The notes under the pieces: model-generated | What the model saw: the letters and a program-made list of their open reading frames with translations, nothing else | Told to the model about the DNA's origin: nothing | Database searches by the model: none | Translations under genes and position numbers: made by a program | Shown here: one piece after another, positions 1-33,333 of the stretch | How the letters are laid out: every line of letters begins with the position of its first letter | Numbering within the stretch: position 1 is the stretch's first letter | Assembly (NCBI GenBank): GCA_903927965.1 | Contig: CAIYPA010000488.1 | Coordinates: 1-35,233, forward strand | Reading direction: 5' to 3' | DNA: 35,233 nt | Origin: an uncultured Bacteroidia bacterium | GTDB taxonomy: Bacteria; Bacteroidota; Bacteroidia; Bacteroidales; Prolixibacteraceae

Positions 1-3000
1 ACGGAGACAACTGAATATCATTTAATTCAGAACGATAAGTCTTGCAGCCCCGGACAAACCGTAACTACTGATGCAGTGAAAGTTACTGTTCACGCCCCTT
101 TCAAGGCGGGAGTTGCAACGACCAATCAGACAGTATGCTACGGCGAATCCGCAACCCTGACGGGGACAAATCCGACAGGAGGCAGTGGGGCCAATTATTT
201 AAAACTTCAGTGGAAATCGTCAACCGACAATCTTGTGTGGAATGATGTTATAACCCAGGGTTCGACTTCACTGTCATTCAGCACAGGGGCGCTTTTTGTA
301 ACTACCTATTTCAGGTTAGTACAGACCGATACGTATTGTAAACCTTATAAAACTGATAAGACCAATGATGTTACTATCACTGTATTAGACAAACTGAATC
401 CAGGGATTATCGCCCCTGATAAAGCAACCATTTGCTATAAAGAGTCCCAGTTGTTGACTTCTTCAGGAGTAACGGGCGGGAGCAATAACTTCAAATACCA
501 GTGGCAATCCTATGATGATACCAAAAAACAGTGGAATGCCATTCCTGGAGCCAATTCAACAACTTACAATACCGGTCAGCTAACACAGAGTACTACCTAT
601 CGGTTGGCAGTAACAGATTTGATGTGCGCTCCAAATCAAACAGACTACTCGAAAGAGGCAACCATTATTGTTTATGGAGAATTGACAAAAGGATCTACAA
701 CTTCCAATGTTTTAACTATTTGTTATGGTGGTTCAGTCGTTCTGACTGGGACTGCTCCGACAGGAGGAAGCGGGTCAATTATCAGATATCAATGGCAGGA
801 ATTTGTAAACGGAGGTTGGATAACTTCTACTCAAGGATCCGGATATAATAGTCTCGTTTATACAACAGGTCCTATTCTAGTCAATACAAAATTCAGATTG
901 ACAGAAACCGATGTTTATTGTAATCCCGATCAGACTGTAAATACGGATGAGGTTGCAATTGCCATTACTTCCCCAACTGTTAATGCCGGACCAGATGATG
1001 TAATTTGTGATCTTGTTCCTTACAAACTTTCTAAAGCTCTAGCTACCAATGCTACAAATTTCAAATGGACAACTTCCGGAACCGGTTCATTCTTCAATAA
1101 ATTTTTGCTGGATGCCATTTACTTCCCAAGCCAGGCGGATATGAATATTGGAAGTGTAGTTTTAACACTGACAGTCTCAGATAATTGTGGAAATGAAGCT
1201 AAGGACGACTTGAACCTTACATTGGGTCATGTACCCTCTGCGTTCTTTATAAACAGCACACCAGTTTGCAGCAATAATGTAATTGATTTCACCGATCAAT
1301 CAAGAGTAACAAATGGTTATATTAATAAATGGGAATGGGATTATGGTGATGGGAATAAAGAGGCCATAAATTATCCAGGTAAGCTGAATGTTAGTCACTT
1401 ATATTCTGATCAGGTTCCAAGTGCAAATGTAAAATTAACTGTTTATTCCAATCTTGGATGTAGTAATGTATTTCCAAAAGTTATCCCAATAGCAAAGGCT
1501 CCTGGGGCTAGTTTTGATGTACCGGCAGTTTTGTGCCAGGGTCAGGCTGTTCAATTCACAAATACCTCCCAGATAGGGACTGGCAACAGTTTGCAACCCT
1601 GGAGTTGGAACTTTGATGATCCTGCAAGCGGAACAAACAATACCTCTGTATCACAGAATCCAACCCATGCATTTGGTAAAGCAGGCGATTACAATGTGAG
1701 CTTAACTGTCCAGAATTCCAGTAAATGTTATGCCACCACAGTTAAAACAATAACCGTTAAAGCAATACCCACTGTTGGGTTTACATTTACCCAACCTTGC
1801 CTGAACGAGTTGGTTACCTTCGCACCTGATCCAACAAAAATGGATATCAAAACAATAGGTTTATGGTTTTGGGAATTTGGAGATGGAGGTACCTCAGAAA
1901 AGGCGACAGTTGTGCATCCATTTACCGGTACAGGGACCTTTACCACCAAACTAACGGTTAAGGATCTTTCGGGATGTTCTGCCACCGTTGATAATCCGCT
2001 TATTGTAAATTCGTTACCAGTTGTTAAATACAACGCAACAGTTACAGATTGTACAAAAAATACTGTTTATTTCAACAATCAATCTTCCACATCTGCCGGG
2101 TCTATAGTGAAATGGACTTATAACTTCGGAGATAACAACAGTACAGTGGTCAATTTCCTGAGCGATCCGAATGTTTCGCATTCCTATAGCAAACCAGATC
2201 CTTACCACACGTCCTTAACGGTCGAAACGGCAGAAGGTTGCAAAATAACAGATACTTTAAGTGTTAATCTTTATAACCAGTCTAAGGCTGGCTTCACATA
2301 TAACTCGCCATGCAGCAATATTCCGGTTTCGTTTACGGATTTGTCCCAGACGAATGGAAGTGGTGATATCGTGAAGTGGGAATGGAATTTTGGTGATCCT
2401 TCCAGTCCGAATAATGGTTCAACGTTACAGAATCCATCCCATTTGTTTTCTACTGATGGGACCTATAAAGTGACATTAGTTGTCACCAATAGAAATGGCT
2501 GTCAAAATACGTTTGTCAAGTTAGATGTGGTTATCAAGCCTAAATTGGCTGCTGATTTTACTATGGCTACTATCAAATGTGAAGGGCAATCATTAGACTT
2601 TACCAATAATTCATCTGCTCCCTCAGGAACTGCAATTGTATCGAATAATTGGTATTTTGGCGATGGTTCCAGTTTGAAACAGTCATCTGCTTCAGATATG
2701 TTCCCGCACACTTATAAAACTTATGGCCCCTTCACGGTCAAACTGGATGTAGTTGATTCGAATGGGTGTAGTGCCACAGCCGAAAAACAAATAGTGGTGA
2801 GCCCAAAACCAGTAGCGGATTACACATTCTCAGAGTTAAGATGCATCGATACGCCTGTTAGTTTCACTGACAGGTCCTTTGTGCGGGCAGGATTTAACAG
2901 CTATATATCGAAATGGGATTGGGATTATGGCGATGGTTCAAAAGTTGTTTCGATCACTCCTTCAGATAATCCTAACGGACCTCCGCATCTTTTTGTACCA

Positions 3001-4575
3001 GGCTCTTCAAGTTATAATGTTAGCTTAAAGGTAACAACAACTGCCGGATGTACTGACGATACGATCCAGAACCTGGTCGTTAACACGGCTGGATTTACTG
3101 GAACTTATGGTCCATATTGTGCAAGTGACGGACCGATTACACTTACTGCTGTTCCCTCAGGAGGTACATTTAGTGGTTTTACTGTGCAAGGAAATACTTT
3201 CTATCCTGATAGGGCAGGTGCTGGAACTCATACAATCACCTACACCACCCCGGGAGGTAAATGTGCTGTTGCTCCAATAAATATTGTAGTTGTTTCGGCA
3301 CCTCTGGTTAAAACCACGAAACAATATGTTCCTAATTGTAACGGAACTGTTGATTTAACCCTTCCTGCTGTCACAACCGGTTCAACTCAGGGCTTGATCT
3401 TTAAATATTATATGGATGCGCTTGCAACGAATCCTGTTCCAAAGCCGGAGGCAGTGAGTATCGGAACTTATTATATCAGAGGTGCTACAGGCAGTGGAAG
3501 ATGTTCAACAATACAACCCGTGGTGGTCGAACCGAGATATCCATTGGTGGTTACATTGACTATGGTATCACCACAATGTAGCGGAGTTGCCAATGGATCA
3601 ATAAAGGTAGATGTTAACAATGCAACAACTCCTGTATCCTATCAATTGAATGTTCTGCCGGCTCAGACTTCTAACAACACCTCTTATACATTTTCAAACA
3701 TCAAATCGGATAATTATTCTATATTGATCAAGGATGCAAGCGGATGTACGTTAAAGAAGGATACCATTTTAAAGGATAACCCTCAGTTAAAAATCCATAT
3801 CACTCCAACAAATATACTTTGTGGCGATGATGCCAATGGGGAGGCTGTCGTGGACTACATCAACGGTAGCAATACCCAGACTGTTTTTGCTGCACATACT
3901 TATGAATGGAAAACCACTCCTGCTCAATCTGGCAGATCAGCCGTAAGGCTTAAAAAAGGATGGGCAGTCGTGACCCTTGATGCCAAAACCTGTGCAGTTA
4001 AAGATAGTGTTGAAATAAAAGTCCTGGACAATATACCACCTACGATTTCCTGCAAAACAGAAACGGTAACCATTGTATTACAGGCCGATGCAAATAGTTC
4101 TGGTCAAAATGCCCCGACTACTGCAGTAGTGGAGTTGTCAAAACCACATGTTGAAGATAATTGTGGAATAGCCAGTCTTACAAACAATGCACCTGAATTT
4201 TTCAAAATAGGAACTCCAACACGTGTAAAATGGGTTGTCACTGACCTTGCAGGTTTACAAGATTCCTGTTTTCAGGTTGTCTATGTTAAAATGATTCCAA
4301 CAATTCCAAAATTGCTTACTCCGAATGGGGATGGGTTAAATGATAATTTTGAGATTGATGGTTTGAAAAACTTCCCAAATTCGCAGATATCCATCTTTAC
4401 ACGTTCAGGTGAACCGGTGTTCTCAAGCAATGATTATAAGAATGACTGGGATTGTAGATTCACTTTATCCAAGTTCTACAACAATCAACTTGTTTCACCC
4501 GGTGTCTATTACTATATACTTAGTCTTGGGGGGACTACCCAAAAGATAAAAGGTTTTATCTACATCTCATATTAA
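1..4575 (+). CDS. PKD-repeat surface protein with T9SS type-B sorting domain (5' end outside window)
   Basis: This is the 3' part of a very large secreted protein. The frame is open from the first base, so the GTG at 76 is not a real start and the N-terminus and signal peptide lie upstream. The first ~980 bases encode Ig-like repeats of about 100 residues, each beginning with a motif like ICYGGSVVLTG and ending near TTYFRLVQTD. Seven PKD repeats follow, recognised by WEWDYGDG-type motifs starting near 1330, 1600, 1861, 2113, 2377, 2650 and 2914. A HYR-like segment (DNIPPTISC ... VEDNCGI) lies near 4030-4290. The last ~88 residues, starting LLTPNGDGLNDNFEI, are the gliding-motility-type C-terminal domain (CHU_C, T9SS type B) that directs export through the type IX secretion system. 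Many regularly spaced cysteines occur. Likely a cell-surface adhesin or matrix protein; its ligand cannot be told from sequence. Confidence 0.9.
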   Translation, partial: TETTEYHLIQNDKSCSPGQTVTTDAVKVTVHAPFKAGVATTNQTVCYGESATLTGTNPTGGSGANYLKLQWKSSTDNLVWNDVITQGSTSLSFSTGALFVTTYFRLVQTDTYCKPYKTDKTNDVTITVLDKLNPGIIAPDKATICYKESQLLTSSGVTGGSNNFKYQWQSYDDTKKQWNAIPGANSTTYNTGQLTQSTTYRLAVTDLMCAPNQTDYSKEATIIVYGELTKGSTTSNVLTICYGGSVVLTGTAPTGGSGSIIRYQWQEFVNGGWITSTQGSGYNSLVYTTGPILVNTKFRLTETDVYCNPDQTVNTDEVAIAITSPTVNAGPDDVICDLVPYKLSKALATNATNFKWTTSGTGSFFNKFLLDAIYFPSQADMNIGSVVLTLTVSDNCGNEAKDDLNLTLGHVPSAFFINSTPVCSNNVIDFTDQSRVTNGYINKWEWDYGDGNKEAINYPGKLNVSHLYSDQVPSANVKLTVYSNLGCSNVFPKVIPIAKAPGASFDVPAVLCQGQAVQFTNTSQIGTGNSLQPWSWNFDDPASGTNNTSVSQNPTHAFGKAGDYNVSLTVQNSSKCYATTVKTITVKAIPTVGFTFTQPCLNELVTFAPDPTKMDIKTIGLWFWEFGDGGTSEKATVVHPFTGTGTFTTKLTVKDLSGCSATVDNPLIVNSLPVVKYNATVTDCTKNTVYFNNQSSTSAGSIVKWTYNFGDNNSTVVNFLSDPNVSHSYSKPDPYHTSLTVETAEGCKITDTLSVNLYNQSKAGFTYNSPCSNIPVSFTDLSQTNGSGDIVKWEWNFGDPSSPNNGSTLQNPSHLFSTDGTYKVTLVVTNRNGCQNTFVKLDVVIKPKLAADFTMATIKCEGQSLDFTNNSSAPSGTAIVSNNWYFGDGSSLKQSSASDMFPHTYKTYGPFTVKLDVVDSNGCSATAEKQIVVSPKPVADYTFSELRCIDTPVSFTDRSFVRAGFNSYISKWDWDYGDGSKVVSITPSDNPNGPPHLFVPGSSSYNVSLKVTTTAGCTDDTIQNLVVNTAGFTGTYGPYCASDGPITLTAVPSGGTFSGFTVQGNTFYPDRAGAGTHTITYTTPGGKCAVAPINIVVVSAPLVKTTKQYVPNCNGTVDLTLPAVTTGSTQGLIFKYYMDALATNPVPKPEAVSIGTYYIRGATGSGRCSTIQPVVVEPRYPLVVTLTMVSPQCSGVANGSIKVDVNNATTPVSYQLNVLPAQTSNNTSYTFSNIKSDNYSILIKDASGCTLKKDTILKDNPQLKIHITPTNILCGDDANGEAVVDYINGSNTQTVFAAHTYEWKTTPAQSGRSAVRLKKGWAVVTLDAKTCAVKDSVEIKVLDNIPPTISCKTETVTIVLQADANSSGQNAPTTAVVELSKPHVEDNCGIASLTNNAPEFFKIGTPTRVKWVVTDLAGLQDSCFQVVYVKMIPTIPKLLTPNGDGLNDNFEIDGLKNFPNSQISIFTRSGEPVFSSNDYKNDWDCRFTLSKFYNNQLVSPGVYYYILSLGGTTQKIKGFIYISY

Positions 4576-4617
4576 TGGAGCAGCTTGCAATTAAAAATAT
4601 CTACCTTGAAAAACAAA

Positions 4618-5586
4618 ATGCTATACAATCAAAAATCTCGAATAGGATTGGCCTTATTAATTGTGATGCTTATTCCATTTAAGGGTTTTGGCCAGCAAGA
4701 TCCTGTCTATACACAGTATATGAATAATTTACTGACATTTCAGCCTGCATATATTGGCATGTCGGACAATTATAACTTCACCCTGTTAAGTCGTCAGCAA
4801 TGGGTCGGTTTTGATGGCGCCCCTGAAACAACTACGTTTACTGCACAGGTTCCGTTTTCGGAATATAATATGGGTGTTGGGCTTTCTGTGATTCATGACA
4901 AATATGGGCCAGTACGCCAGGATGCTGTTTATTTTGATTTTGCTTATCACTTTCCGGTCAGCGATGCAATAAACTGTTCCCTTGGTATAATGGGAGGCGG
5001 TAATTTTTATAAAGCTTTCGTAAGCGAACTTACGACACATGACCCGAACGATCCACTAGCAATTCAGGATATTACAGGAAAATTTCAGCCCAATATTGGT
5101 ACTGGTGTCCTATTTAGTGCTGAAAAATATTTTTTAGGCATTTCGGTACCTAAACTTCTAAAAAACACCATTACTACGGATACCGGGTCTCCCCTGTATC
5201 ACAATGACCTGAATTTTTATGGGATGTTTGGTTGCGAAATCTTTAAAGACAACTTTAAATTGAAACCAAATATTTTCTACCGATGGAATGAAAATAATCC
5301 TGCGCTAATTGATATAAACATTAATGCAATTTTCTACGATGTTTTTTGTCTGGGTGCAACTTATCGGTATAATAATTCTTTTGGTTTTCTTTTTCAGATT
5401 TATCCGTTCCGTGATGAACGGTTTGCTCCTATAAAAATTGGAATGGCTTATGACCTTACAACTTTTCATTCATCCCAGGTGAATTCAGGAACATATGAGC
5501 TGATGATTAGTTTTAACATTCCGGGAAAGGAGAGTTTTCGCAATAAATACGGTAGAAGAAGGGTCAGCAATACTTGTCGCTGGTAA
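4618..5586 (+). CDS. PorP/SprF family type IX secretion membrane protein
   Basis: Outer-membrane beta-barrel-like protein of the PorP/SprF family, known as a T9SS-associated partner of type-B-sorted proteins such as SprB. I chose the ATG at 4618 because it gives a standard signal peptide (hydrophobic stretch GLALLIVMLIPF, cleavage around FGQ-Q at residues 24-26). A TTG at 4585 in the same frame would add 11 residues ahead of it. The mature start QQDPVYTQYMNNLLTFQPAY is the family's typical N-terminus, and the length of 322 residues is normal. It follows the PKD protein by 42 bases on the same strand, so the two are probably co-transcribed and this protein probably serves the secretion or anchoring of its neighbour. 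The pairing is known for the family; the specific partnership here is inferred. Confidence 0.9.
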   Translation: MLYNQKSRIGLALLIVMLIPFKGFGQQDPVYTQYMNNLLTFQPAYIGMSDNYNFTLLSRQQWVGFDGAPETTTFTAQVPFSEYNMGVGLSVIHDKYGPVRQDAVYFDFAYHFPVSDAINCSLGIMGGGNFYKAFVSELTTHDPNDPLAIQDITGKFQPNIGTGVLFSAEKYFLGISVPKLLKNTITTDTGSPLYHNDLNFYGMFGCEIFKDNFKLKPNIFYRWNENNPALIDININAIFYDVFCLGATYRYNNSFGFLFQIYPFRDERFAPIKIGMAYDLTTFHSSQVNSGTYELMISFNIPGKESFRNKYGRRRVSNTCRW

Positions 5587-16345: not shown

Positions 16346-16375
16346 AAGCCCGGGACTAAGTCACCGGGCTTTTGT
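16346..16375 (+). terminator. Rho-independent terminator after secG
   Basis: An 8-bp perfect stem, AAGCCCGG (16346-16353) with CCGGGCTT (16364-16371), and a 10-base loop are followed by a T-rich tract (TTGTGTTTG). It lies 78 bases after the secG stop. This should separate the secG operon from the giant genes. A weaker hairpin (GAAGG/CCTTC) lies at 16294-16308. Confidence 0.8.
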
Positions 16376-16604: not shown

Positions 16605-19600
16605 ATGAAACTATTCAATCTTAAGCAAGCCAGAACGTTAGTTGCTACCGCGCAACCAGTTTCCACCGAAGGATCAGGAAGACGGAAATTTATTAAGAAT
16701 GTCGGTTTTTTTGCCTTAAGTGCCAATCCGATTGCTGAATCCATCAAGACAATCACCTTCAGACCCTTTGAAATCAGGTTTTCAGATAATCAATTTGCAG
16801 TTTTGCGAAAGGATGTATTGGTTTGGTCAATTTCGAATGAACACTTCAACAAAGGATATTCTCTAAGCTTAAAGGAATCATCCAATGGCTATTTGCTTCA
16901 TGCAGAACATCTTGGCCTAATAAATACCAACCTCTGTTTTTCGTTGGAGGCAACGATCACTTACGAAAGAATGGAGTGGAAAATGCAAATCGTAATTCCT
17001 GAATTCGGAATCAATGAAAAACTCAATTTTATCGATTGGCTGGATGGTAAGGTGAAATTAGAAAAGGGGATAATCAACGACTTGATTATTAAGAAATTAA
17101 ATAATGTTGACAATGTTTCTGTTATCGGAGAGTGTTCAATCAAAATCGACCACAAATGGAATTGTGAAATCGAAGGCAAAGGGAATATTTCTACTGTTCT
17201 GAATGGCGAGACCTATAATTCTGATCTGGCTTATCTTTCTACCAACAAACAGATACCGGATTTATTGGAAATAAGTCAGGGTTTAAATTTTACAGGTCTT
17301 ACAATTCCAGAATTTGTGGGTTGGAGACGATATATTGAGAACATTAAATTCTATGAAAGCAACCACTTAAAGGCCAATTACCATGCTCCTGATTTGAATT
17401 TTATTTTTTTGGGATCTGAAAATGGTGACGATCATTCGGCTTTTTGGGTTTTGGAAGAAAAAGGGTCACTTTCCTTTTTACCTGAAAAGCGTTTGAACAA
17501 TGAATTTAGCTTTGAAAAATACCTCTATTTTTCGGAATATCAAATGGGGGCCGATCCTGATTTCTACCTTTCGGGAAGCCTGGCGAACAATGGACAATGG
17601 ATAACCAACAAATTAGGTTCTTTCAATTTTATTAACGATGAGAAAATTCCTGTTTTTGAAGCCTTTGGGACAAATAGTCAGATAACCGACCATTTTTTTG
17701 AACCCCGGATGAGGGCTTTCCAACCTTATATCAGCGATGCAATTGCCCTGGTCTCCAAATATAGTAATCCCCAGCCTGTAAGCATTAATCCCCAAAAACC
17801 CGAAAATTCCGGTTCACCACAGGATCCTATTAAACTCAATAAAATCAAACGCGAGCAGGTCGAAAATGTTTCCAAAATGAAGATTGGTTTCGAAGAAGTA
17901 AATTTTCTCCCAAAACAAGCTTTAAAAATTAAATTTCTTCGCCCGGAAGATTTGATTTTATTGGAGTTCGAACTTCATAATTTTAAGTTTTCAAACCGGG
18001 GAGAGGCTCCTTATGTGGAGTTGGCCAATCCTAAGGAAGTTGGAATTGTTGTTGTCTGGTTTCAATCGCAACATACGTTGGAAGAGGCATTCTTTGAGGC
18101 TTCAAATATTCAGGCTAAAGATGGAACTTCTTCAGGGCCTGGTAATATACCACTTCCGGTCAGGCAAATTCGTGCCAAAAAGAGCCGACTTGTTTATGAA
18201 CTGCCTGTTGGTCATGCCGGTTTTCCTTTAATTGTGGAAGGGTTATTGGATTGGTCGAAGTATAACCTTCGTGTCCATCCCCGCGCATGGGCTAAAGTTG
18301 AATCTTACACAGTAGGCCCCGTGGCCTATCCATCAGGGGCTGTTTCAGTAACGAATACTGCAACTATTGAAGCGACTACAAAATTTATTGATCGTAATAC
18401 CAAGCAAGATCACTATGCCGTAATGATGGCTTCAAACCAAAAAGTTAGGGCCCAAAACCAAAATATCTATGTAGCTTCGGTACTCGACAAATTGTTAAAA
18501 TCCGAAAAATCATTCACACTTGCACCTGAATTTAACATTGCCGTTATTAATAAGATTGACCTCAGTGTTGGGCCAATTCCCGATACAAGTACTTCGATCG
18601 AAGCTCCTGCCTTACTCTATATCTCGCCTAATCAGGTAAGTGATTTTACTCATAAAATTGAGCTTGAAACCCGTGATGTAGATGAAAGGGTCACAACAAA
18701 TACTTTACAACTCAACCAGAACAACAGGGTTTTTGACCCGCTTTTCTTGGGGAAGGGAGAAATCGTCGAATTGTGGCACAGCAGGATGGGCACCAAATTG
18801 AAAAACGGGAAGGTTATCTTTTATCATCTTGAAAAGTTACAGACAATCAGGGCATTATGGGCTTATGACGGAATAAGGGAATGGCCTGATCCTGCAAAAT
18901 TGCCAAAAGCCTACAAAAAAGATTACAAGAATTTGCCGTTCATGGCTTCGCTCGATGCTGACGACCGCATCAAATTGGTCCACGAAACATCAAATTATTA
19001 TATTCCTGATTACCAGCCGGTTGCTGTCCCTGTTAAAATGTTGATGCTTACCTCCTTAGGTGCGTACATCGACTGGCATGCCTTTTTCAATGTCCCTGTT
19101 CCTGCCGATACCTATCTCAACATTGTAGAATGGGAACATCGTGCAACATTGGGAAGGGACCACTATGTAAAAATCGTGAAGAAAGGTTACCTTTTTCCTG
19201 TCGGACACCGGGCAGTGCTGGTGAAAGTGACAGAACGCAAGTTTAACAAAGCTACAAAAGCAGCCATTTGCCGGCAGAGGATGTATATCGTAGTGCTTGA
19301 GAAGGAAGTCCTTTATCCCCGCGTCGATCCTGCGAATAAATTTATCCGGTTTCCGTTCCAGTCGATTCGGATCGATACCCCATTCACACCAGATATTGAT
19401 AACCCCACCGAATCAACTATCATTAAATCATCAAGTTATAATTTTTATATCAATGTTGGGAAGGAAGGTTTTAAATTTAATGTGGTTGCAACAGACAAAG
19501 AAGGGATTGATCACAAGATCAGGATGCCACTGGTTTTTACAGAAACAGGTATTGCACGCGATCTCAATGAAATTGGAGGAGTTATCGCAGAATATAACAA

Positions 19601-21386
19601 GAAAACCAAATTTACGAATATTCCATTTAATGGACAGAAAATAGGGTATGCCGAATCACTTGTTGAGGGCGATACATTATTCGAGACCGATACCCTTGAG
19701 TTTGGTGCACAAAAATACCCTGCGACGGGTTTAGGGGAACTGAAATTTCATCCGATGATGCAATCTTCCAAAATTTACCTGAAACAGGTGGAAGAACTTA
19801 CCGGGAATCGCAAAGTTGCATCAATCACCCTTGAAGATGATCAAAATGATGGGATGGTTTTTGCAAAAGTGACCGATGCAGTGCTTGACTTTTCGGGCGG
19901 AACCGACAAATCGGGGGGATTTATTTCACCAAACATGAACATTACCGGGTTAAGCAAATTGCAGGGACCCATTGGCGGTGATGTTGAAGATCTGAAGAAA
20001 CTAGTTTTTAATGCCTCTAAATTTTTTGAGAAAATTGGGGATTCCCTTCCATCGGCAAAAATATTTGGTGTGATCGATATTTTTGACTTGTTTCCAACTG
20101 ACTCCAGTTTGGGCGGATCGTTTGATAGTATGATCAATGCTGTCAAAAAGATAAGAGATGAAATTGAAAGTATTAAAGATGAAATCTTATACCTTGAAAA
20201 TCAGGCAAAAGAGACCAAAGAAGATATTACTTCGCAAATGGCCGCTTTTAAGAAAAACATCGAAGATAAAGTCAAGGAGTTGATCGCAGCATTGAACAGC
20301 AATACACCCCGAATTCCTAATTTAAAGACCTATCTTACCGAATCGGCCTTTTATGCAGAATATAAGTGGAATCCCGAGCTGGCCAGCAACGACATGACAA
20401 TCATCGCTGATTTACTTAAGGTGCAGGTAACCGACCATAAAACAGCGCTTACAATCAGCACAAAATTTGTCAAACCATTCGATTCGACTATCCCTGCTTC
20501 ACTTAACGGGTTGGCCCGTTTTGAGAAATTCACCATTGACATTGTACCTTTGCTTTCGGTCAAATTCAATTACATTGAATTCAGATCCGGTTCATCCCAG
20601 AAAACAGATGTAAAGGTAGATATTGATGCGAATGATCCGATCGCCTTTAAGGGAGCCCTCTCGTTTGTGAACAGTCTGCAAAGTATCATCCCAAGCACCG
20701 GATTTTCTGACGATGGTCCTTTTATCGATCTGAGTCCAACCGGAATAACAGCAGGATTCAACATCAGCATCCCGAGTGTAGAAGTTGGTGTTTGTTCAAT
20801 AACCAACATGATGTTGGGTGCCAGCATCACCCTGCCCTTTACAGGGGCACCACTGACCCTGGCATTCAATTTCGCTACCCGCGAAAATCCTTTCCTGCTT
20901 ACAGTCTCTTGTTTTGGTGGTGGTGGTTACTTTTTACTTGTAAGTACGCTTCATGGCATACAGTCCGTTGAAGCTGCTTTTGAATTTGGGGCATCGCTTT
21001 CCCTGAATATTGGCGTTGCCTCCGGAAGCGTATCCGTAATGGGAGGATTTTACTTCAAGGTTGAGGCTGTAACCAAAAATGGTGAAGATACAACTGATGT
21101 TACCCTCACCGGTTACATCAGAATAAATGGCAGGCTTTCCATTTTGGGAATTATCACCTTATCGCTCGAATTCTACCTTGCCCTGACAGCCGTCCTCGAA
21201 GGTGGGAAAGTCCAGCGGATTGAAGGAGAGGCCACTTTGAAAGTAAAGGTGGAAGTGCTCTTCTTTAGTAAAACGGTCTCTATGACTGTACGGCGGGAAA
21301 TTGCAGGTGCCGATGCTGACCCAAAATTTTCACAAATGATCGAATTGGAAGACTGGAAGCAATATTGTCTTGCATTTGCAGGGTGA
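16605..21386 (+). CDS. Giant uncharacterised protein A (1593 aa; Tat-like motif, coiled coil, Gly-rich beta C-terminus)
   Basis: I recognise no family of known function. Residues 26-31 read RRKFIK, close to the twin-arginine consensus, but the following hydrophobic stretch (NVGFFALSANPIA) is weak, so Tat export is uncertain; no Sec signal is present. Most of 50-1150 looks beta-rich. Distinct segments are EIVELWHSRMGTKL (about 720), a basic region GRDHYVKIVKKGYLFPVGHR (about 845-865) and a Cys-containing CRQRMYIVVLEKE. A coiled coil spans about 1179-1232 (KKIRDEIESIKDEI ... ). The last ~200 residues (from about 1394) are a Gly/Ser/Phe-rich beta domain with LLTVSCFGGGGYFLL, EFGASLSLNIGVASGS and a closing DWKQYCLAFAG. 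From memory, large uncharacterised proteins in other phyla share some of these motifs; I could not verify this. The ATG at 16605 is the only good start. Giant protein B follows 68 bases downstream. Confidence 0.85.
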   Translation: MKLFNLKQARTLVATAQPVSTEGSGRRKFIKNVGFFALSANPIAESIKTITFRPFEIRFSDNQFAVLRKDVLVWSISNEHFNKGYSLSLKESSNGYLLHAEHLGLINTNLCFSLEATITYERMEWKMQIVIPEFGINEKLNFIDWLDGKVKLEKGIINDLIIKKLNNVDNVSVIGECSIKIDHKWNCEIEGKGNISTVLNGETYNSDLAYLSTNKQIPDLLEISQGLNFTGLTIPEFVGWRRYIENIKFYESNHLKANYHAPDLNFIFLGSENGDDHSAFWVLEEKGSLSFLPEKRLNNEFSFEKYLYFSEYQMGADPDFYLSGSLANNGQWITNKLGSFNFINDEKIPVFEAFGTNSQITDHFFEPRMRAFQPYISDAIALVSKYSNPQPVSINPQKPENSGSPQDPIKLNKIKREQVENVSKMKIGFEEVNFLPKQALKIKFLRPEDLILLEFELHNFKFSNRGEAPYVELANPKEVGIVVVWFQSQHTLEEAFFEASNIQAKDGTSSGPGNIPLPVRQIRAKKSRLVYELPVGHAGFPLIVEGLLDWSKYNLRVHPRAWAKVESYTVGPVAYPSGAVSVTNTATIEATTKFIDRNTKQDHYAVMMASNQKVRAQNQNIYVASVLDKLLKSEKSFTLAPEFNIAVINKIDLSVGPIPDTSTSIEAPALLYISPNQVSDFTHKIELETRDVDERVTTNTLQLNQNNRVFDPLFLGKGEIVELWHSRMGTKLKNGKVIFYHLEKLQTIRALWAYDGIREWPDPAKLPKAYKKDYKNLPFMASLDADDRIKLVHETSNYYIPDYQPVAVPVKMLMLTSLGAYIDWHAFFNVPVPADTYLNIVEWEHRATLGRDHYVKIVKKGYLFPVGHRAVLVKVTERKFNKATKAAICRQRMYIVVLEKEVLYPRVDPANKFIRFPFQSIRIDTPFTPDIDNPTESTIIKSSSYNFYINVGKEGFKFNVVATDKEGIDHKIRMPLVFTETGIARDLNEIGGVIAEYNKKTKFTNIPFNGQKIGYAESLVEGDTLFETDTLEFGAQKYPATGLGELKFHPMMQSSKIYLKQVEELTGNRKVASITLEDDQNDGMVFAKVTDAVLDFSGGTDKSGGFISPNMNITGLSKLQGPIGGDVEDLKKLVFNASKFFEKIGDSLPSAKIFGVIDIFDLFPTDSSLGGSFDSMINAVKKIRDEIESIKDEILYLENQAKETKEDITSQMAAFKKNIEDKVKELIAALNSNTPRIPNLKTYLTESAFYAEYKWNPELASNDMTIIADLLKVQVTDHKTALTISTKFVKPFDSTIPASLNGLARFEKFTIDIVPLLSVKFNYIEFRSGSSQKTDVKVDIDANDPIAFKGALSFVNSLQSIIPSTGFSDDGPFIDLSPTGITAGFNISIPSVEVGVCSITNMMLGASITLPFTGAPLTLAFNFATRENPFLLTVSCFGGGGYFLLVSTLHGIQSVEAAFEFGASLSLNIGVASGSVSVMGGFYFKVEAVTKNGEDTTDVTLTGYIRINGRLSILGIITLSLEFYLALTAVLEGGKVQRIEGEATLKVKVEVLFFSKTVSMTVRREIAGADADPKFSQMIELEDWKQYCLAFAG

Positions 21387-21454
21387 GATTCCTTTTATTA
21401 AATATAGCTAATTAGCAGATTGATTGAAAACCAACGATTTATAAACAACAAGAT

Positions 21455-24400
21455 ATGTCACAGGAATTAATATTTACGGTATTGCCTCATCAGCGGATCG
21501 TTCGCGATGGGCATAACTACCTTCAGCTATCGGTTTATGTAACAATACGCCTGGAGTCTGTTTCCAACGGTAAACTATCTGATTTTGAAGATATACTCAA
21601 TTGGCCTGACAGAATCATGAACAATAAATATGTTTTTGAGTTCAACAGTAGCGCTCTGGCTCTTCCGGGTGAACTTCAAAAAACGAAAATAAATAGCGAC
21701 TTGTATAAAAAACTGTTATTCGGTGATATACGTGTGAATAAGTTTGTTCAGGAGGACCTCACCCTCAAAAGGATCAACTCCTTTCCGATGCGGCATGTCA
21801 AGGATTTCGTATTGAAAAACTATACACTGGCAGCGATTGAAGATTCAATAAATTTAGTCTCTGCTGACAAATTTATTGATGAAGAACGTTTTGGCCTTTT
21901 TTCACCGATTAAGATCGATGAGAATGAGCTCTTCAATGTCAACAACAATCGGATGAAAAATTTTGACAAAACAAAAAAACCGATTGTTAGTAGGTTGCCG
22001 CCCAACGATATACGGTTTAACCTCCAAAAATTCCGTTTTATTCCCGGATCGAAACAAATCAACCCCGTTTTGGACATTTCTCAATTCCGAAATTTTCATA
22101 AATTGGACCGTGAAAAGGTCAAAATTGTACCCTTTATCATCAAAAAACCAGAATTTGAATTCCATGACATTGTCGCCGCTGCAAACAGCTATCCTCAAAT
22201 TATGCGGAAGCTTGGTTATATACTTGATTTTGAGGTGGCACTTTCTGTCACCATTCCTGTTACAGGGAACATCCGGTTACAACCCTCTTCCTTTACCTTC
22301 ACAGAAAAAGAGTGTACAACATCCTTTCCTTCCACTGCCTATGAGATCACCAAAAGCGGATTCTATGCAGCCGATCGAACGGATTCGATTTTCAAGCGGG
22401 GCTTTGTGAAGATCAATACGGATGACTTTTCGGTTGTTCAGCTCGATACAGATGGTGTGGCCTTAAAGGCGAGCAATATGGCTGAAAACAAAGTTCATCA
22501 GGTAGTCAAATATTTCAATGTAAAATCGAAACTTTCTGTTAGCCATAATCTTGACAAAAAGAAAATTAATTTTATTGAAACTCCAGTGGATGAAGGACTT
22601 CCATCAATGAGATCGGCTGGGATAGCCATTGTAAAAAACGGGATGGCCGAACATATTTTTAAGGTATTCAACGACAATAAAGTATTGCAGTCCAGCATAT
22701 TGACCAATGCCCCAATAAGCCCTGTTTTTAAGGTTAAAATGCCCGATTTTTCCCTTTACTCGTCTGATATAATTCAGGGATACCGGATGGACATTGCTTA
22801 TACACGCGATCCTGAAAAATGGTATTCACTTCACTTTCGCCTCGATGAATATAAATGGTTTGATAAAAGCAATACTCCCCATGCAATCGATGGAATTGAA
22901 CCCGATGAAGGGTTTATTGAACTGGCCGTGGCCGAGGACCCCAATGATCCGGATGATATTTTTATATCCGAAACACTTGCCCGTTGGGAAGGGTGGAGTC
23001 TCTCGGTTGGAAAGCCTGGTTATGCCATCAACGAAGCCAACGATTACAAATTAAAAGAGGGAGAAAAGGTAAAACGTGATTTTGTCCATGAGAACAAGGC
23101 AATGGAGGAGACAAAATATGCCTTTAACCCGGAAAGTGAATTCAGGATCAACGTACAAACGAAAATCGTTCCCGGAACTTTGCCAAAATTGCGATTTGGA
23201 AGGGAGTACTGTGTAAGGATCAGGGCAGTTGACCTGGCAGGAAACAGTGTTCCATTGACCCAACTCTCTGAAGATGTTGCCGAGACGGTGATCAGCGGTA
23301 TCCGGTATATGCGTTATGAACCATTATCAGGTCCTATCATGCTTACAGGCAATGAATTAAAAGATGGTGAATTTGCAGAAAGAATGGTCATCCGCAGTAA
23401 TTTTGACACCTCGACCGCTGTTTATGAGGACAAATTTTCGATTAAAGGAAACAAACTGGACAATTATTCTCAACGATTTTTACTTCCGCCCAAAAATAGT
23501 CAGCTGATGGCTGAGACTCACGGAATGTTTGAAAAGGCGATGGGTGATTTTCCGGATGCAGCAGCAACAATATACGAAATCATAACCAGTCATGAGGGAC
23601 TTTATGAGAAAAGCAAGGAAAACAAAGAGGTGATTTATAAACCTTCGGATGTTAAGGTCATCTATCTTCCCGACCCTATGGCAGCAGGAGTTGCCATTTT
23701 CCTGGCCGAAGGTTACGAAACTACCCATACCTCCGAATTTGTTCCACGTCTTTTTGGGTTTTATTCCAATGATGAAGTTTCCGCAACCAATACCAATATG
23801 GATATCCCTTCCGACTGGTACAATGCGAAACCATTGACTATCAGACTCGAAGAAGGTGTACTTCATTCAACTTGGGATGCACCGAACAGGGTTTTTACTG
23901 TTTATCTACCACAGGGATATCGTACAAGGCTTAGAATCAGCACCTTTTGGCGCGAAAAAGATATGAAGGAACTTTCTGCGGTCTGGCAGATGGTCAAAGA
24001 AAGCTCACCCATCAACTACAATGCCTTGGAAAAATTGGCCAGGATTGGTCAGCATTGGATGGTTAGCCCTTCAAGGGAAATCGAACTTGTACATGCCGTC
24101 CAACAACCTGTGGAAGAACCTGTTATTAAAGCACTTATACCTGACCGGGATTTTGGTGAGACCATAGCAAGGATCAATATCAGATTCTCGGTGCATGGTG
24201 AAAGTACCGAAAAAGTTGAATTTCAGGCCAAATGGACAGATCCGCTTGATGATGCCATATCTGTTGAGATAAAAAAATCACAGAGGAGCAGTTCTATCCG
24301 CGACCAGGAAATACATTATCATGACGACTTGATCACAAGGGGATCCGTCCCCGCAGTCCCAAAACTTGAGCTGGAAAAGAATCCCAGAATGGTTTTTCAG

Positions 24401-25798
24401 CCCATTAAGGACATGAAAGTAAAAACCGAAGTCGAATTTAAAGCAAATCCCCAACCCGATGCGTCAAAAGTAAATATCCTTTATAAGAAGCAGTCAACGG
24501 CATTTGACACGCTCCAGCAGACCAAGCTTTCGGCAAAGAATACCCTGGTCAACAATCTGAAGTTCGATATTGCAGAGTCCAAGTTTAACTTTATTAAAGG
24601 GATTGATCTGCGTTTCGATCCATTGGTGATCAATTTTGACGATACAAAACATCATTGGGTCGATTTCAGGATCGTTGCAGCTTCGCGTTACCGTGAATAT
24701 TTCGATAAAATATTGACCAATTTCGCCAATCCTCCTACTACTCGTGAAAGCAAGATGGTCGAAAAAATCAATATATTGAGTACTGTCCGTCCGTCTATTC
24801 CCGAAATTGACTATGTAATTCCTACTTTTGAATGGCGCAAATCACAAAATGAGAATACGATACGCCATCAAAGATTAGGTGGCGGTCTCCGGGTTTTCCT
24901 GAAACGCCCATGGTTTTCAACAGGGGCTGATGAAATGCTTGCTGTTATACTTCCTCCACCCTCAGCCGAGATCAGCCTTGCGAGCATATTGGTTGATTCT
25001 GCCCGTGAATACACAATGAACTATACTTATTGGGGCCTCGATCCATTGCATAATTCGGGCCAACCCGATCAGATCACTCCAAAACCGACTGATTTCAGGT
25101 TGAATCCGGTTATTGATAATAACCTTGAATATCCCGACAAACCGGATTTAATAGCCAATGCAGTCGCTTATCCTGTGCATTTCGATGAAAGCCGGCAGCA
25201 ATGGTTCTGCGATTTGGCGATCAATCCGAAAAATATGTATTTCCCGTTTATCAAACTGGCTTTGGCACGCTATCAGCCACATTCGGTCAGAAAAGCACAG
25301 TTTGATTGTTGCCTTTCACATGTTGTTTTAGCAGAGATGATCCAGTTGATGCCCGATCGGCAAACAACAATCCAATTCAAGAAAGAAGATGTCAATTCAA
25401 AGTTCACGGTAACAATCGAAGGGCTGATCTATCAGGAAGCACTGCCATCATATGGAATTTTTAATTACTTCCATATTAGTTTACTCGACAGCCGGATTGC
25501 GCAACCTGTGTTCGGAGTGATTGATGATGGTTTGTCGAAACAGAAACTCGAAGACGAAAAAGTCGATATTCAATTGACAGCCAGAGATATATCTGGAAAC
25601 CGGTTTAAGGTAACCAGGGATTTTAAATTGCCAGGCAAATACAAAAGTGCACCTTTCGTTGTGATTATTGAGGAATACGAACGTGGACCGAAGAGCATGT
25701 CCCTCCCCGCGGACTATAAAGAGAGGATAGAACAGTCGGATGAGACAGATAAAATTGTCTATGCTGATGTTTTTAAAATCAACGAAGTAAAATCATAA
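21455..25798 (+). CDS. Giant uncharacterised protein B (1447 aa; FN3-like segment)
   Basis: No recognised function. The protein starts MSQELIFTVLPHQR with no signal peptide or membrane segment, so it is either cytoplasmic or exported by a dedicated route. Around 570-605 a fibronectin-III-like strand pattern is visible (LRFGREYCVRIRAVDLAGN). Other distinctive stretches are LPPKNSQLMAETHGMFEKA (about 680), YLPDPMAAGVAIFLAEGYE (about 737), HQRLGGGLRVFLKRPWFS (about 1135), YWGLDPLHNS (about 1192), FIKLALARYQPHSV (about 1265) and LSHVVLAEMIQLMPDR. The C-terminal ~120 residues again look like a beta-sandwich (VDIQLTARDISGNRF). It lies 68 bases after protein A; a 10-bp palindrome GCTAATTAGC (21407-21416) is in the gap. 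Base composition resembles the neighbours. The two giants are probably co-expressed and may act together; that is inference. Confidence 0.85.
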   Translation: MSQELIFTVLPHQRIVRDGHNYLQLSVYVTIRLESVSNGKLSDFEDILNWPDRIMNNKYVFEFNSSALALPGELQKTKINSDLYKKLLFGDIRVNKFVQEDLTLKRINSFPMRHVKDFVLKNYTLAAIEDSINLVSADKFIDEERFGLFSPIKIDENELFNVNNNRMKNFDKTKKPIVSRLPPNDIRFNLQKFRFIPGSKQINPVLDISQFRNFHKLDREKVKIVPFIIKKPEFEFHDIVAAANSYPQIMRKLGYILDFEVALSVTIPVTGNIRLQPSSFTFTEKECTTSFPSTAYEITKSGFYAADRTDSIFKRGFVKINTDDFSVVQLDTDGVALKASNMAENKVHQVVKYFNVKSKLSVSHNLDKKKINFIETPVDEGLPSMRSAGIAIVKNGMAEHIFKVFNDNKVLQSSILTNAPISPVFKVKMPDFSLYSSDIIQGYRMDIAYTRDPEKWYSLHFRLDEYKWFDKSNTPHAIDGIEPDEGFIELAVAEDPNDPDDIFISETLARWEGWSLSVGKPGYAINEANDYKLKEGEKVKRDFVHENKAMEETKYAFNPESEFRINVQTKIVPGTLPKLRFGREYCVRIRAVDLAGNSVPLTQLSEDVAETVISGIRYMRYEPLSGPIMLTGNELKDGEFAERMVIRSNFDTSTAVYEDKFSIKGNKLDNYSQRFLLPPKNSQLMAETHGMFEKAMGDFPDAAATIYEIITSHEGLYEKSKENKEVIYKPSDVKVIYLPDPMAAGVAIFLAEGYETTHTSEFVPRLFGFYSNDEVSATNTNMDIPSDWYNAKPLTIRLEEGVLHSTWDAPNRVFTVYLPQGYRTRLRISTFWREKDMKELSAVWQMVKESSPINYNALEKLARIGQHWMVSPSREIELVHAVQQPVEEPVIKALIPDRDFGETIARINIRFSVHGESTEKVEFQAKWTDPLDDAISVEIKKSQRSSSIRDQEIHYHDDLITRGSVPAVPKLELEKNPRMVFQPIKDMKVKTEVEFKANPQPDASKVNILYKKQSTAFDTLQQTKLSAKNTLVNNLKFDIAESKFNFIKGIDLRFDPLVINFDDTKHHWVDFRIVAASRYREYFDKILTNFANPPTTRESKMVEKINILSTVRPSIPEIDYVIPTFEWRKSQNENTIRHQRLGGGLRVFLKRPWFSTGADEMLAVILPPPSAEISLASILVDSAREYTMNYTYWGLDPLHNSGQPDQITPKPTDFRLNPVIDNNLEYPDKPDLIANAVAYPVHFDESRQQWFCDLAINPKNMYFPFIKLALARYQPHSVRKAQFDCCLSHVVLAEMIQLMPDRQTTIQFKKEDVNSKFTVTIEGLIYQEALPSYGIFNYFHISLLDSRIAQPVFGVIDDGLSKQKLEDEKVDIQLTARDISGNRFKVTRDFKLPGKYKSAPFVVIIEEYERGPKSMSLPADYKERIEQSDETDKIVYADVFKINEVKS

Positions 25799-32752: not shown

Positions 32753-33136
32753 TTATATTTTATACGGATTACAAATTTTCAGTCCTTTAATATGAACAAA
32801 GTCTTTTTCATTATTAGTGATCAGCGTTAAGTTGTATGCCAATGCAGTGGCTGCAATAATAGCATCCGGCGTTTTTATTTTTTTACTTCTTCTAATATTT
32901 ACACACCTGCCTACTACATCAGGGCTGATTTCAATTATAGCACTGTCATCAATAAATTCCTTGACTTTCAACTCAGTTAAAGGATCAGTTTGCCAGCAAA
33001 GTAACTCGATTTGAGTAATAACAGAAATAGTTGGAATTGAGTCAAAAACAGTATCCATAAAATTCAAGCCATCAACAGAAAATGAAGCAGCGAAGTAATC
33101 AGAAACAACATTGGTGTCAATTAGATATTTTTCCAT
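32753..33136 (-). CDS. vapC: PIN-domain toxin, VapC family
   Basis: Probable ribonuclease toxin of a type II toxin-antitoxin module, 127 residues. The PIN acidic active-site residues are visible: Asp7 in LIDTNVVSDYF, Glu44 in ITQIELL, Asp91 in KTPDAIIAATA and Asn108/Asp112 in ITNNEKDF. The start codon overlaps the end of the antitoxin gene by 16 bases, the usual arrangement with the antitoxin first. The cellular target, likely an RNA, cannot be told. The pair lies on the minus strand within the polysaccharide locus and is likely a recent or independent insertion. Confidence 0.9.
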   Translation of the reverse strand: MEKYLIDTNVVSDYFAASFSVDGLNFMDTVFDSIPTISVITQIELLCWQTDPLTELKVKEFIDDSAIIEISPDVVGRCVNIRRSKKIKTPDAIIAATALAYNLTLITNNEKDFVHIKGLKICNPYKI

Positions 33137-33333
33137 TCTTTTCTCATTTGATCAATATGATCGTTCAGTTTTTGCCCTTCTTCCTTACTTAGTATGCCCC
33201 TGTATTTATCTGACAATTTGGGTGTTGCTATATCTATATTCTCTTTTAAAACTTTGATAAGGCTCAGTTCTTCCAATTCGTGTAAAAGTCCAGCGGCCTT
33301 TTGGTTCATAAGTTGTATCAACATTGTATCCAT
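33121..33333 (-). CDS. Antitoxin of the VapC-type module
   Basis: Small protein of 70 residues overlapping the toxin gene by 16 bases. It starts MDTMLIQLMNQKAAGLLHEL, then ELSLIKVLKE, a pattern I associate with short antitoxin partners of Bacteroidetes PIN toxins; the C-terminal half (LSKEEGQKLNDHIDQMRKEW) is likely the toxin-binding helix. It shows no obvious helix-turn-helix or AbrB-type domain. A clear Bacteroidetes-type promoter lies 45 bases upstream. Identity rests mainly on size, overlap and position. Confidence 0.8.
   Translation of the reverse strand: MDTMLIQLMNQKAAGLLHELEELSLIKVLKENIDIATPKLSDKYRGILSKEEGQKLNDHIDQMRKEWKNI

Follow-up and report, generated by a model that had tools for sequence, protein, structure and literature searches.

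The stretch of DNA analysed here (the window; 35,233 nucleotides (nt)) is contig CAIYPA010000488.1 of assembly GCA_903927965.1, from an uncultured Bacteroidia bacterium of the Prolixibacteraceae. It carries two adjacent giant genes, here called A and B, which almost certainly act as one functional unit. The pair occurs in at least three phyla: in Bacteroidota, in Streptomyces and on alpha- and betaproteobacterial plasmids. Its distribution is best explained by a laterally moving two-gene operon in which, where both genes lie on one contig, A always precedes B. The two proteins are read as subunits of one large, operon-encoded extracytoplasmic (cell-envelope) complex, at a rough probability of 0.45 and with complex, location and function all predicted. 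A signal resembling those of twin-arginine translocation (Tat) on most A, none in B, the tight linkage of the two genes and, in some of the genomes, putative envelope partners together point to such an assembly. The genes were located as follows.

16605..21386, + strand: gene A, first of the pair; 1593 amino acids (aa), ATG start; intact open reading frame (ORF) with homologues
21455..25798, + strand: gene B, second of the pair; 1447 aa, ATG start; intact ORF with homologues; no signal peptide seen

Both ORFs had been picked out in a first-pass annotation of the window as adjacent giants of 1593 and 1447 codons, and both are intact at these positions. They are separated by 68 nt.

Distribution and linkage of the gene pair

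One phylum (395 genomes), plasmids, phages and viral contigs were searched in depth. A first scan yielded two relatives with A adjoining B, from Lutibacter (L001) and a member of the Bacteroidetes (L002). Across the 395 genomes of the window's phylum, B was found in 18 and A in 19, and all 18 genomes with B also had A. The genome with A only (G231) holds a large variant that is cut off by the contig end. In 15 of the 16 loci fetched, and likewise in the window, L001 and L002, A immediately preceded B on one strand; the remaining locus (L043) is cut by a contig end, and L042, counted among the 15, has an interrupted B.

Plasmid records (72,556) were searched with tblastn, which matched the window's B in 12 records and its A in 15. 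In records matched by both queries A stood directly before B in 10/10, two of these being from the same species. The plasmid hosts were Streptomyces, Rhizobium, Sinorhizobium, Cupriavidus metallidurans (two records) and Diaphorobacter. Larger relatives, with A of 3052-3311 aa and B of 1766-1899 aa, were present in Sinorhizobium, Ruegeria and Rhizobium. The first-pass annotation had suggested that homologues might lie side by side in other phyla and had proposed checking whether they co-occur. They do, with A first, in Bacteroidota, in Streptomyces and on proteobacterial plasmids (18/18 genomes with B, 10/10 plasmid records).

Gaps, trees, motif counts and signal counts were obtained from 23 pairs. 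Cut, split or interrupted copies (L001, L039, L042, L043, L048, L051) were left out, as were L080, L081, L083-L085, L115 and the same-genus copies; L036, with an aberrant A end, and L054, with an uncertain start, were retained. The A-B gap was −40 to +91 nt in 22 of the 23 pairs and −236 nt in L054, for which the start is uncertain. Distances among A and among B were correlated at 0.927 over the 23 pairs, the best of 2000 permutations reaching 0.41, and the two trees had 12 of 20 splits in common. In both trees (support 0.96 and 0.63) the betaproteobacterial copies clustered with one from Bacteroidota, a hint of inter-phylum transfer. Between the window and L002, divergence at codon positions 1, 2 and 3 was 0.37, 0.25 and 0.62 for A and 0.33, 0.23 and 0.63 for B. 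Position 3 is the highest in each case, a pattern which fits purifying selection. A strictly paired 9-kb gene set that is maintained by selection, is present in distant phyla and is missing from the family libraries searched represents a sizeable annotation gap.

Two further plasmids carry related pieces. Short ORFs with A-like pieces lie at 15562-18008 of L084, from a Paraburkholderia plasmid, and ∼10 kb from them is a gene whose annotation assigns it to the cytolethal distending toxin subunit B family. On an Agrobacterium plasmid (L081, 4258-19360), an annotated dpd gene cluster is preceded by an A-like gene, a large ORF, a B-like ORF and an ORF of 111 aa.

Features of protein A

The following features were assigned within A.

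16677..16748, + strand: Tat-like signal, residues 25-48, GRRKFIKNVGFFAL; G-R-R-K-F-I-K and a hydrophobic stretch, preceded by 24 residues
19152..19211, + strand: conserved motif GRDHYVKIVKKGYLFPVGHR, residues 850-869 (conservation)
20106..20303, + strand: coiled-coil-like helical spacer, approximately residues 1168-1233 (helix in a low-confidence model; weak matches to long helices)
20505..21320, + strand: conserved C-terminal amphipathic beta domain, approximately residues 1301-1572 (beta periodicity, conservation)
21351..21383, + strand: C-terminal peptide, DWKQYCLAFAG

The window A has twin arginines (RR) at residue 26 and a peak hydrophobicity of 1.16. A scripted rule for RR plus a hydrophobic stretch was passed by 14 of the 23 A proteins, or 15 when L002 is read to the contig edge. 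The same rule was passed by 0/23 B and by 579 of 4600 shuffled A N-termini (13%). The first-pass annotation had stated that both proteins lack a Sec signal; none was seen in either, and the Tat-like signal at residues 25-48 of A had been overlooked. Export of A by Tat is predicted to be likely in the window genome. A tatA-annotated gene was observed 49 nt past B on a Sinorhizobium conjugative plasmid (L055, 19244-19411); no tatA is listed beside the pair at the other annotated plasmid copies.

The N-terminal ∼440 residues of A are absent from the plasmid copies compared, or went unrecognised there, and the common core begins at about profile position 470. The helical spacer varies in length between relatives. 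The last 290 residues showed amphipathic beta periodicity in 6/6 members, drawn from three phyla and an IMG/VR copy (z 3.6-5.7), compared with z of −0.2 to 1.2 for a middle region in the same test. AFA or CFA was present within the last 8 residues of 19/23 A, and the strict form W..YC.AFA in 12/23. The C-terminal beta domain was found in all three Streptomyces A, and the one tested also showed this periodicity. Streptomyces have no outer membrane. An outer-membrane beta-barrel was considered for this domain and is unlikely, because the Streptomyces A share it. The sheet, being amphipathic, may contact hydrophobic ligands or membranes.

Protein B and possible partner genes

Two motifs were recorded in B.

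23189..23245, + strand: motif LRFGREYCVRIRAVDLAGN, Fn3-like by eye, unconfirmed by any profile
25247..25288, + strand: motif FIKLALARYQPHSV

The motifs quoted in the first-pass annotation are all present: GRDHY at A residue 850, VRIRAVDLAGN at B residue 587 and LARYQP at B residue 1270.

Neighbour proteins of 18 loci were compared all-against-all. A protein termed C was near the pair in 9/18 loci; by eye it has a signal peptide and an N-terminal domain, and RCC1 repeats were found in one of three members scanned. A second protein, D, was near the pair in 5/18 loci and by eye is an outer-membrane barrel. A search with D gave matches in 150/395 genomes, and the 11 best were all in genomes positive for A/B. 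Four of these 11 came from genomes that supplied model rows and seven were independent, five of the seven sharing a contig with A. In some Bacteroidota the A/B pair appears linked to C (putative secreted protein) and D (putative outer-membrane barrel). No likeness was detected with hhalign between A and B, A and C, or B and C. In the window genome a C-like protein is encoded away from A/B, on contig C88 (L073, 10688-18001), with a putative barrel and a protein of 1035 aa as its neighbours.

A small protein family was tried as a general third partner and rejected, since in the window's phylum it was found in 4/395 genomes, none with A/B. Members lie near A/B on one plasmid each of Rhizobium (L079, 5308-6138) and Streptomyces (L057, 10175-11155), and the family was found in 3 of the 72,556 plasmid records. 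When 16 neighbour proteins were compared with the loci, a match in a second independent locus was obtained only for this family and for one small protein (L056, L055).

Family searches and structure models

The window A and B had no significant match in Pfam, NCBIfam, PHROGs, PADLOC or PDB sequences (best E of 0.013, 0.23, 0.074, 0.024 and 0.023 to 0.036, respectively). The weak matches of A, to long-helix proteins, fell within its helical spacer. Against the PDB, profiles built from relatives reached best E values of 0.017 (13 B) and 0.0099 (11 A). Pfam Apolipoprotein was matched by 3 of 11 single A members (best E 1.3e-4), probably on the helical spacer. The 13 single B members matched only DUF900 (0.062) and PKD_6 (0.088) in Pfam, one member each, and one of them weakly matched an NCBIfam phage tail tube model (E 0.0091). 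Known anti-phage defence models in PADLOC gave only Cas12c (E 0.024), on A residues 1176-1238. PHROGs gave no match at E 0.001 for A or B of the window or of L058, and a search of 50,697 phage records made with the window's B, not A, gave no match. No paper on the pair was found in a literature search of partial coverage that included the motif strings. The first-pass view that both proteins are unlike any family of known function agrees with these profile searches, in which both proteins and their relatives gave no strong match. Judged by sequence, the pair may represent undescribed families; a reliable structure might yet assign it to a fold class already known.

AlphaFold models were generated from four rows each (window, L001, L002 and L058), with mean pLDDT (predicted local distance difference test) values of 31.7 for A residues 430-1593 and 34.2 for B residues 230-1429. 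Foldseek returned no row at E ≤ 0.001 for either model, and its rows were treated as noise. For A the best E was 1.4e-3 with a probability of 0.21, from a model whose pLDDT is too poor to count. The non-significant rows for A were headed by P47 and the OrfX complex and included vitellogenin, microsomal triglyceride transfer protein, actin-capping proteins (probability up to 1.00) and porins, with TM-scores ≤ 0.21.

Genomic context and possible insertion site

The genes upstream of the pair encode a sigma54-type activator, LptE, a 269-aa protein that matches nothing in Pfam, and SecG. Downstream, a hybrid two-component system (HTCS) ORF begins 14 nt past B on the same strand and is followed by GH2, GH88 and the start of an ORF that is SusC-like by eye. 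The first-pass annotation had placed the pair with a housekeeping operon on one side and a glycan locus on the other, and this placement holds.

16346..16374, + strand: terminator-like inverted repeat past secG, similar in 8 relatives

The window sequence diverges from these 8 relatives shortly past the secG terminator (about 16400). The 269-aa neighbour of secG was matched in 12 of 13 same-genus genomes, the window's own included. In 8/8 relatives taken further (L103-L110) the genes after secG are groES-groEL, as identified by eye. The window keeps the secG terminator and has A-B next, in place of groES-groEL, which in the same genome lies on contig C305 (L112) behind other genes. Only 2 of the 12 other same-genus genomes have A, at different sites, and in one of these A and B are fragmented.

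Elsewhere in the window, ORFs that by eye encode a PIN-domain (VapC-like) protein and a small partner lie between GH2 and GH88 (32753-33333, − strand). Positions 76-5586 encode a large protein with PKD repeats and a type IX secretion C-terminal domain, followed by PorP/SprF.

A predicted two-protein envelope complex

Physical association of A and B is somewhat favoured. In the proposed mechanism, A and B would fold, and associate with each other, while still in the cytoplasm. The Tat signal would then take folded A out, and B would leave with it as a signal-less hitchhiker or dock to A at the membrane. Outside, the C-terminal sheet of long amphipathic strands in A would bind a hydrophobic ligand or membrane, and B and the other domains of A would form the body of the complex. 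The surface structure suggested in the first-pass annotation stands in part, through the Tat-like signal on most A and through C and D, the putative envelope partners that some genomes have. A role with a hydrophobic ligand or lipid is doubtful. The fullest form of the proposal is less probable still: a widespread and so far undescribed envelope machine that has moved through diderm and monoderm phyla as a two-gene cassette, with extra partners in some Bacteroidota, and in which a Tat-exported giant with a hydrophobic beta tube carries out a signal-less giant. If the Tat/hitchhiker reading is true, the pair would test the size limit of folded complexes moved by Tat.

Several observations weigh against an exported complex. 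The Tat-like signal is absent in 8 of the 23 A (L034, L036, L044, L052, L053, L054, L057 and L058), and that of the window A is the weakest of the 14 passing. The B of L055, L057 and L058 have hydrophobic peaks of 1.3-1.4, above that of the window A though without RR, so hydrophobicity alone cannot separate A from B. TatC was present in 21/21 A-positive genomes tested and also in 11 of 14 control genomes; being common in controls, it carries little weight. The complex would be roughly 340 kDa by estimate, which is very large for Tat. C-terminal AFA is missing from the largest variants (L055, L056, L079), and both AlphaFold models are of very low confidence and were used only as a hint of secondary structure. 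Neither C nor D is beside the window's pair: C-like matches lie on another contig of the same genome, and the D search of the window genome gave no match. Agreement between the A and B trees is also expected in part from common ancestry alone. The window pair ends 14 nt before the HTCS ORF and so could belong to the glycan locus.

Alternative explanations

Transfer of lipids or other hydrophobic ligands, with the A C-terminal domain forming a TULIP/AsmA-like tube or groove, is rather unlikely, although it survives best. It is favoured by the amphipathic strands of A following a long helix (the helix taken from a low-confidence model), by the P47/OrfX, vitellogenin and microsomal triglyceride transfer protein rows of Foldseek, by the Apolipoprotein matches of three A members, and by the presence of the pair in Streptomyces, which shows that it is not tied to an outer membrane. 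The same Foldseek rows, however, include actin-capping proteins and porins, all above the E threshold, with TM-scores ≤ 0.21 and from a model of mean pLDDT 31.7. Bacterial TULIP families are listed in PMC6791001; no TULIP family was among the Pfam matches of the window A (E up to 1) or of the 11 A members (E up to 0.1).

A and B would be cytoplasmic if the RR motif of A were not a working signal. Eight of the 23 A have no such signal, and in the window the motif starts only at residue 25 with no clear cleavage site seen. This is improbable, since the RR pattern recurs in Bacteroidota, Streptomyces and alphaproteobacteria, at 14/23 against 13% in shuffles.

Equally improbable is a mating-pair or plasmid-maintenance module, in which the pair would be giant surface proteins aiding conjugation in the manner of R27 RSP. 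RSP is described in PMC6764697 as a large plasmid-encoded protein needed for conjugation. The Sinorhizobium pair lies between VirB11/coupling-protein genes and traA/mobC, a B-like ORF in Bradyrhizobium adjoins tra genes, and 6 of the 15 plasmid records found with the Sinorhizobium B are typed conjugative. With the window's B as query, however, 4 of 12 plasmid records are typed conjugative and 5 non-mobilizable. The pair is also carried by 18 genomes of the window's phylum, where no transfer gene was recognised among the shared neighbour families, in which no dedicated search was made.

A contact-dependent device, serving as a weapon or for effector delivery and perhaps descended from a phage tail, is very unlikely. 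In its favour, hydrolases are annotated near a few copies (phospholipase C and an M35 peptidase at one, patatin at another), one B member matches the phage tail tube model, and on the one contig found in scans of the viral collection (IMG/VR) the pair adjoins genes for head protease, major head protein and terminase. Against it, neither of the two phospholipases recurs between loci, no PADLOC or PHROGs model matched at E 0.001, and, as the window's B is unmatched in phage records, the IMG/VR pair is taken as a prophage neighbour.

Least probable is a part for the pair in the adjacent polysaccharide locus, in cell-surface glycan binding or export: the HTCS ORF, GH2, GH88 and SusC-like start follow B, and L002 has two glycosidase-like ORFs (by eye) ∼6 to 9 kb past B behind an ABC transporter, but no glycan locus was seen among the neighbour families common to the loci, and the two same-genus copies sit elsewhere.

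Comparison with known systems

Hitchhiker export, in which a signal-less partner is carried out with its signal-bearing subunit, is known for some Tat enzymes. These cases are mostly cofactor enzymes and are far smaller. A and B resemble them in having a signal on one subunit and none on a tightly linked partner, and differ in that no enzyme signature was seen in either.

The C-terminal part of A, with its possible long helix and long amphipathic beta sheet, may resemble the P47/OrfX TULIP proteins, which head the non-significant Foldseek rows. At 1593 aa, A exceeds in length the P47 and OrfX2 spans given in PMC6791001, and it is paired with B.

Like R27 RSP, as described in PMC6764697, the pair is giant and lies partly on conjugative plasmids, and B has a stretch that is Fn3-like by eye. 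For an Ig/Fn3 domain such as that of RSP, no significant Pfam match was found among the 13 B members. The route of export also differs: RSP is exported by the type IV system of its plasmid (PMC6764697), whereas most A carry a Tat-like signal.

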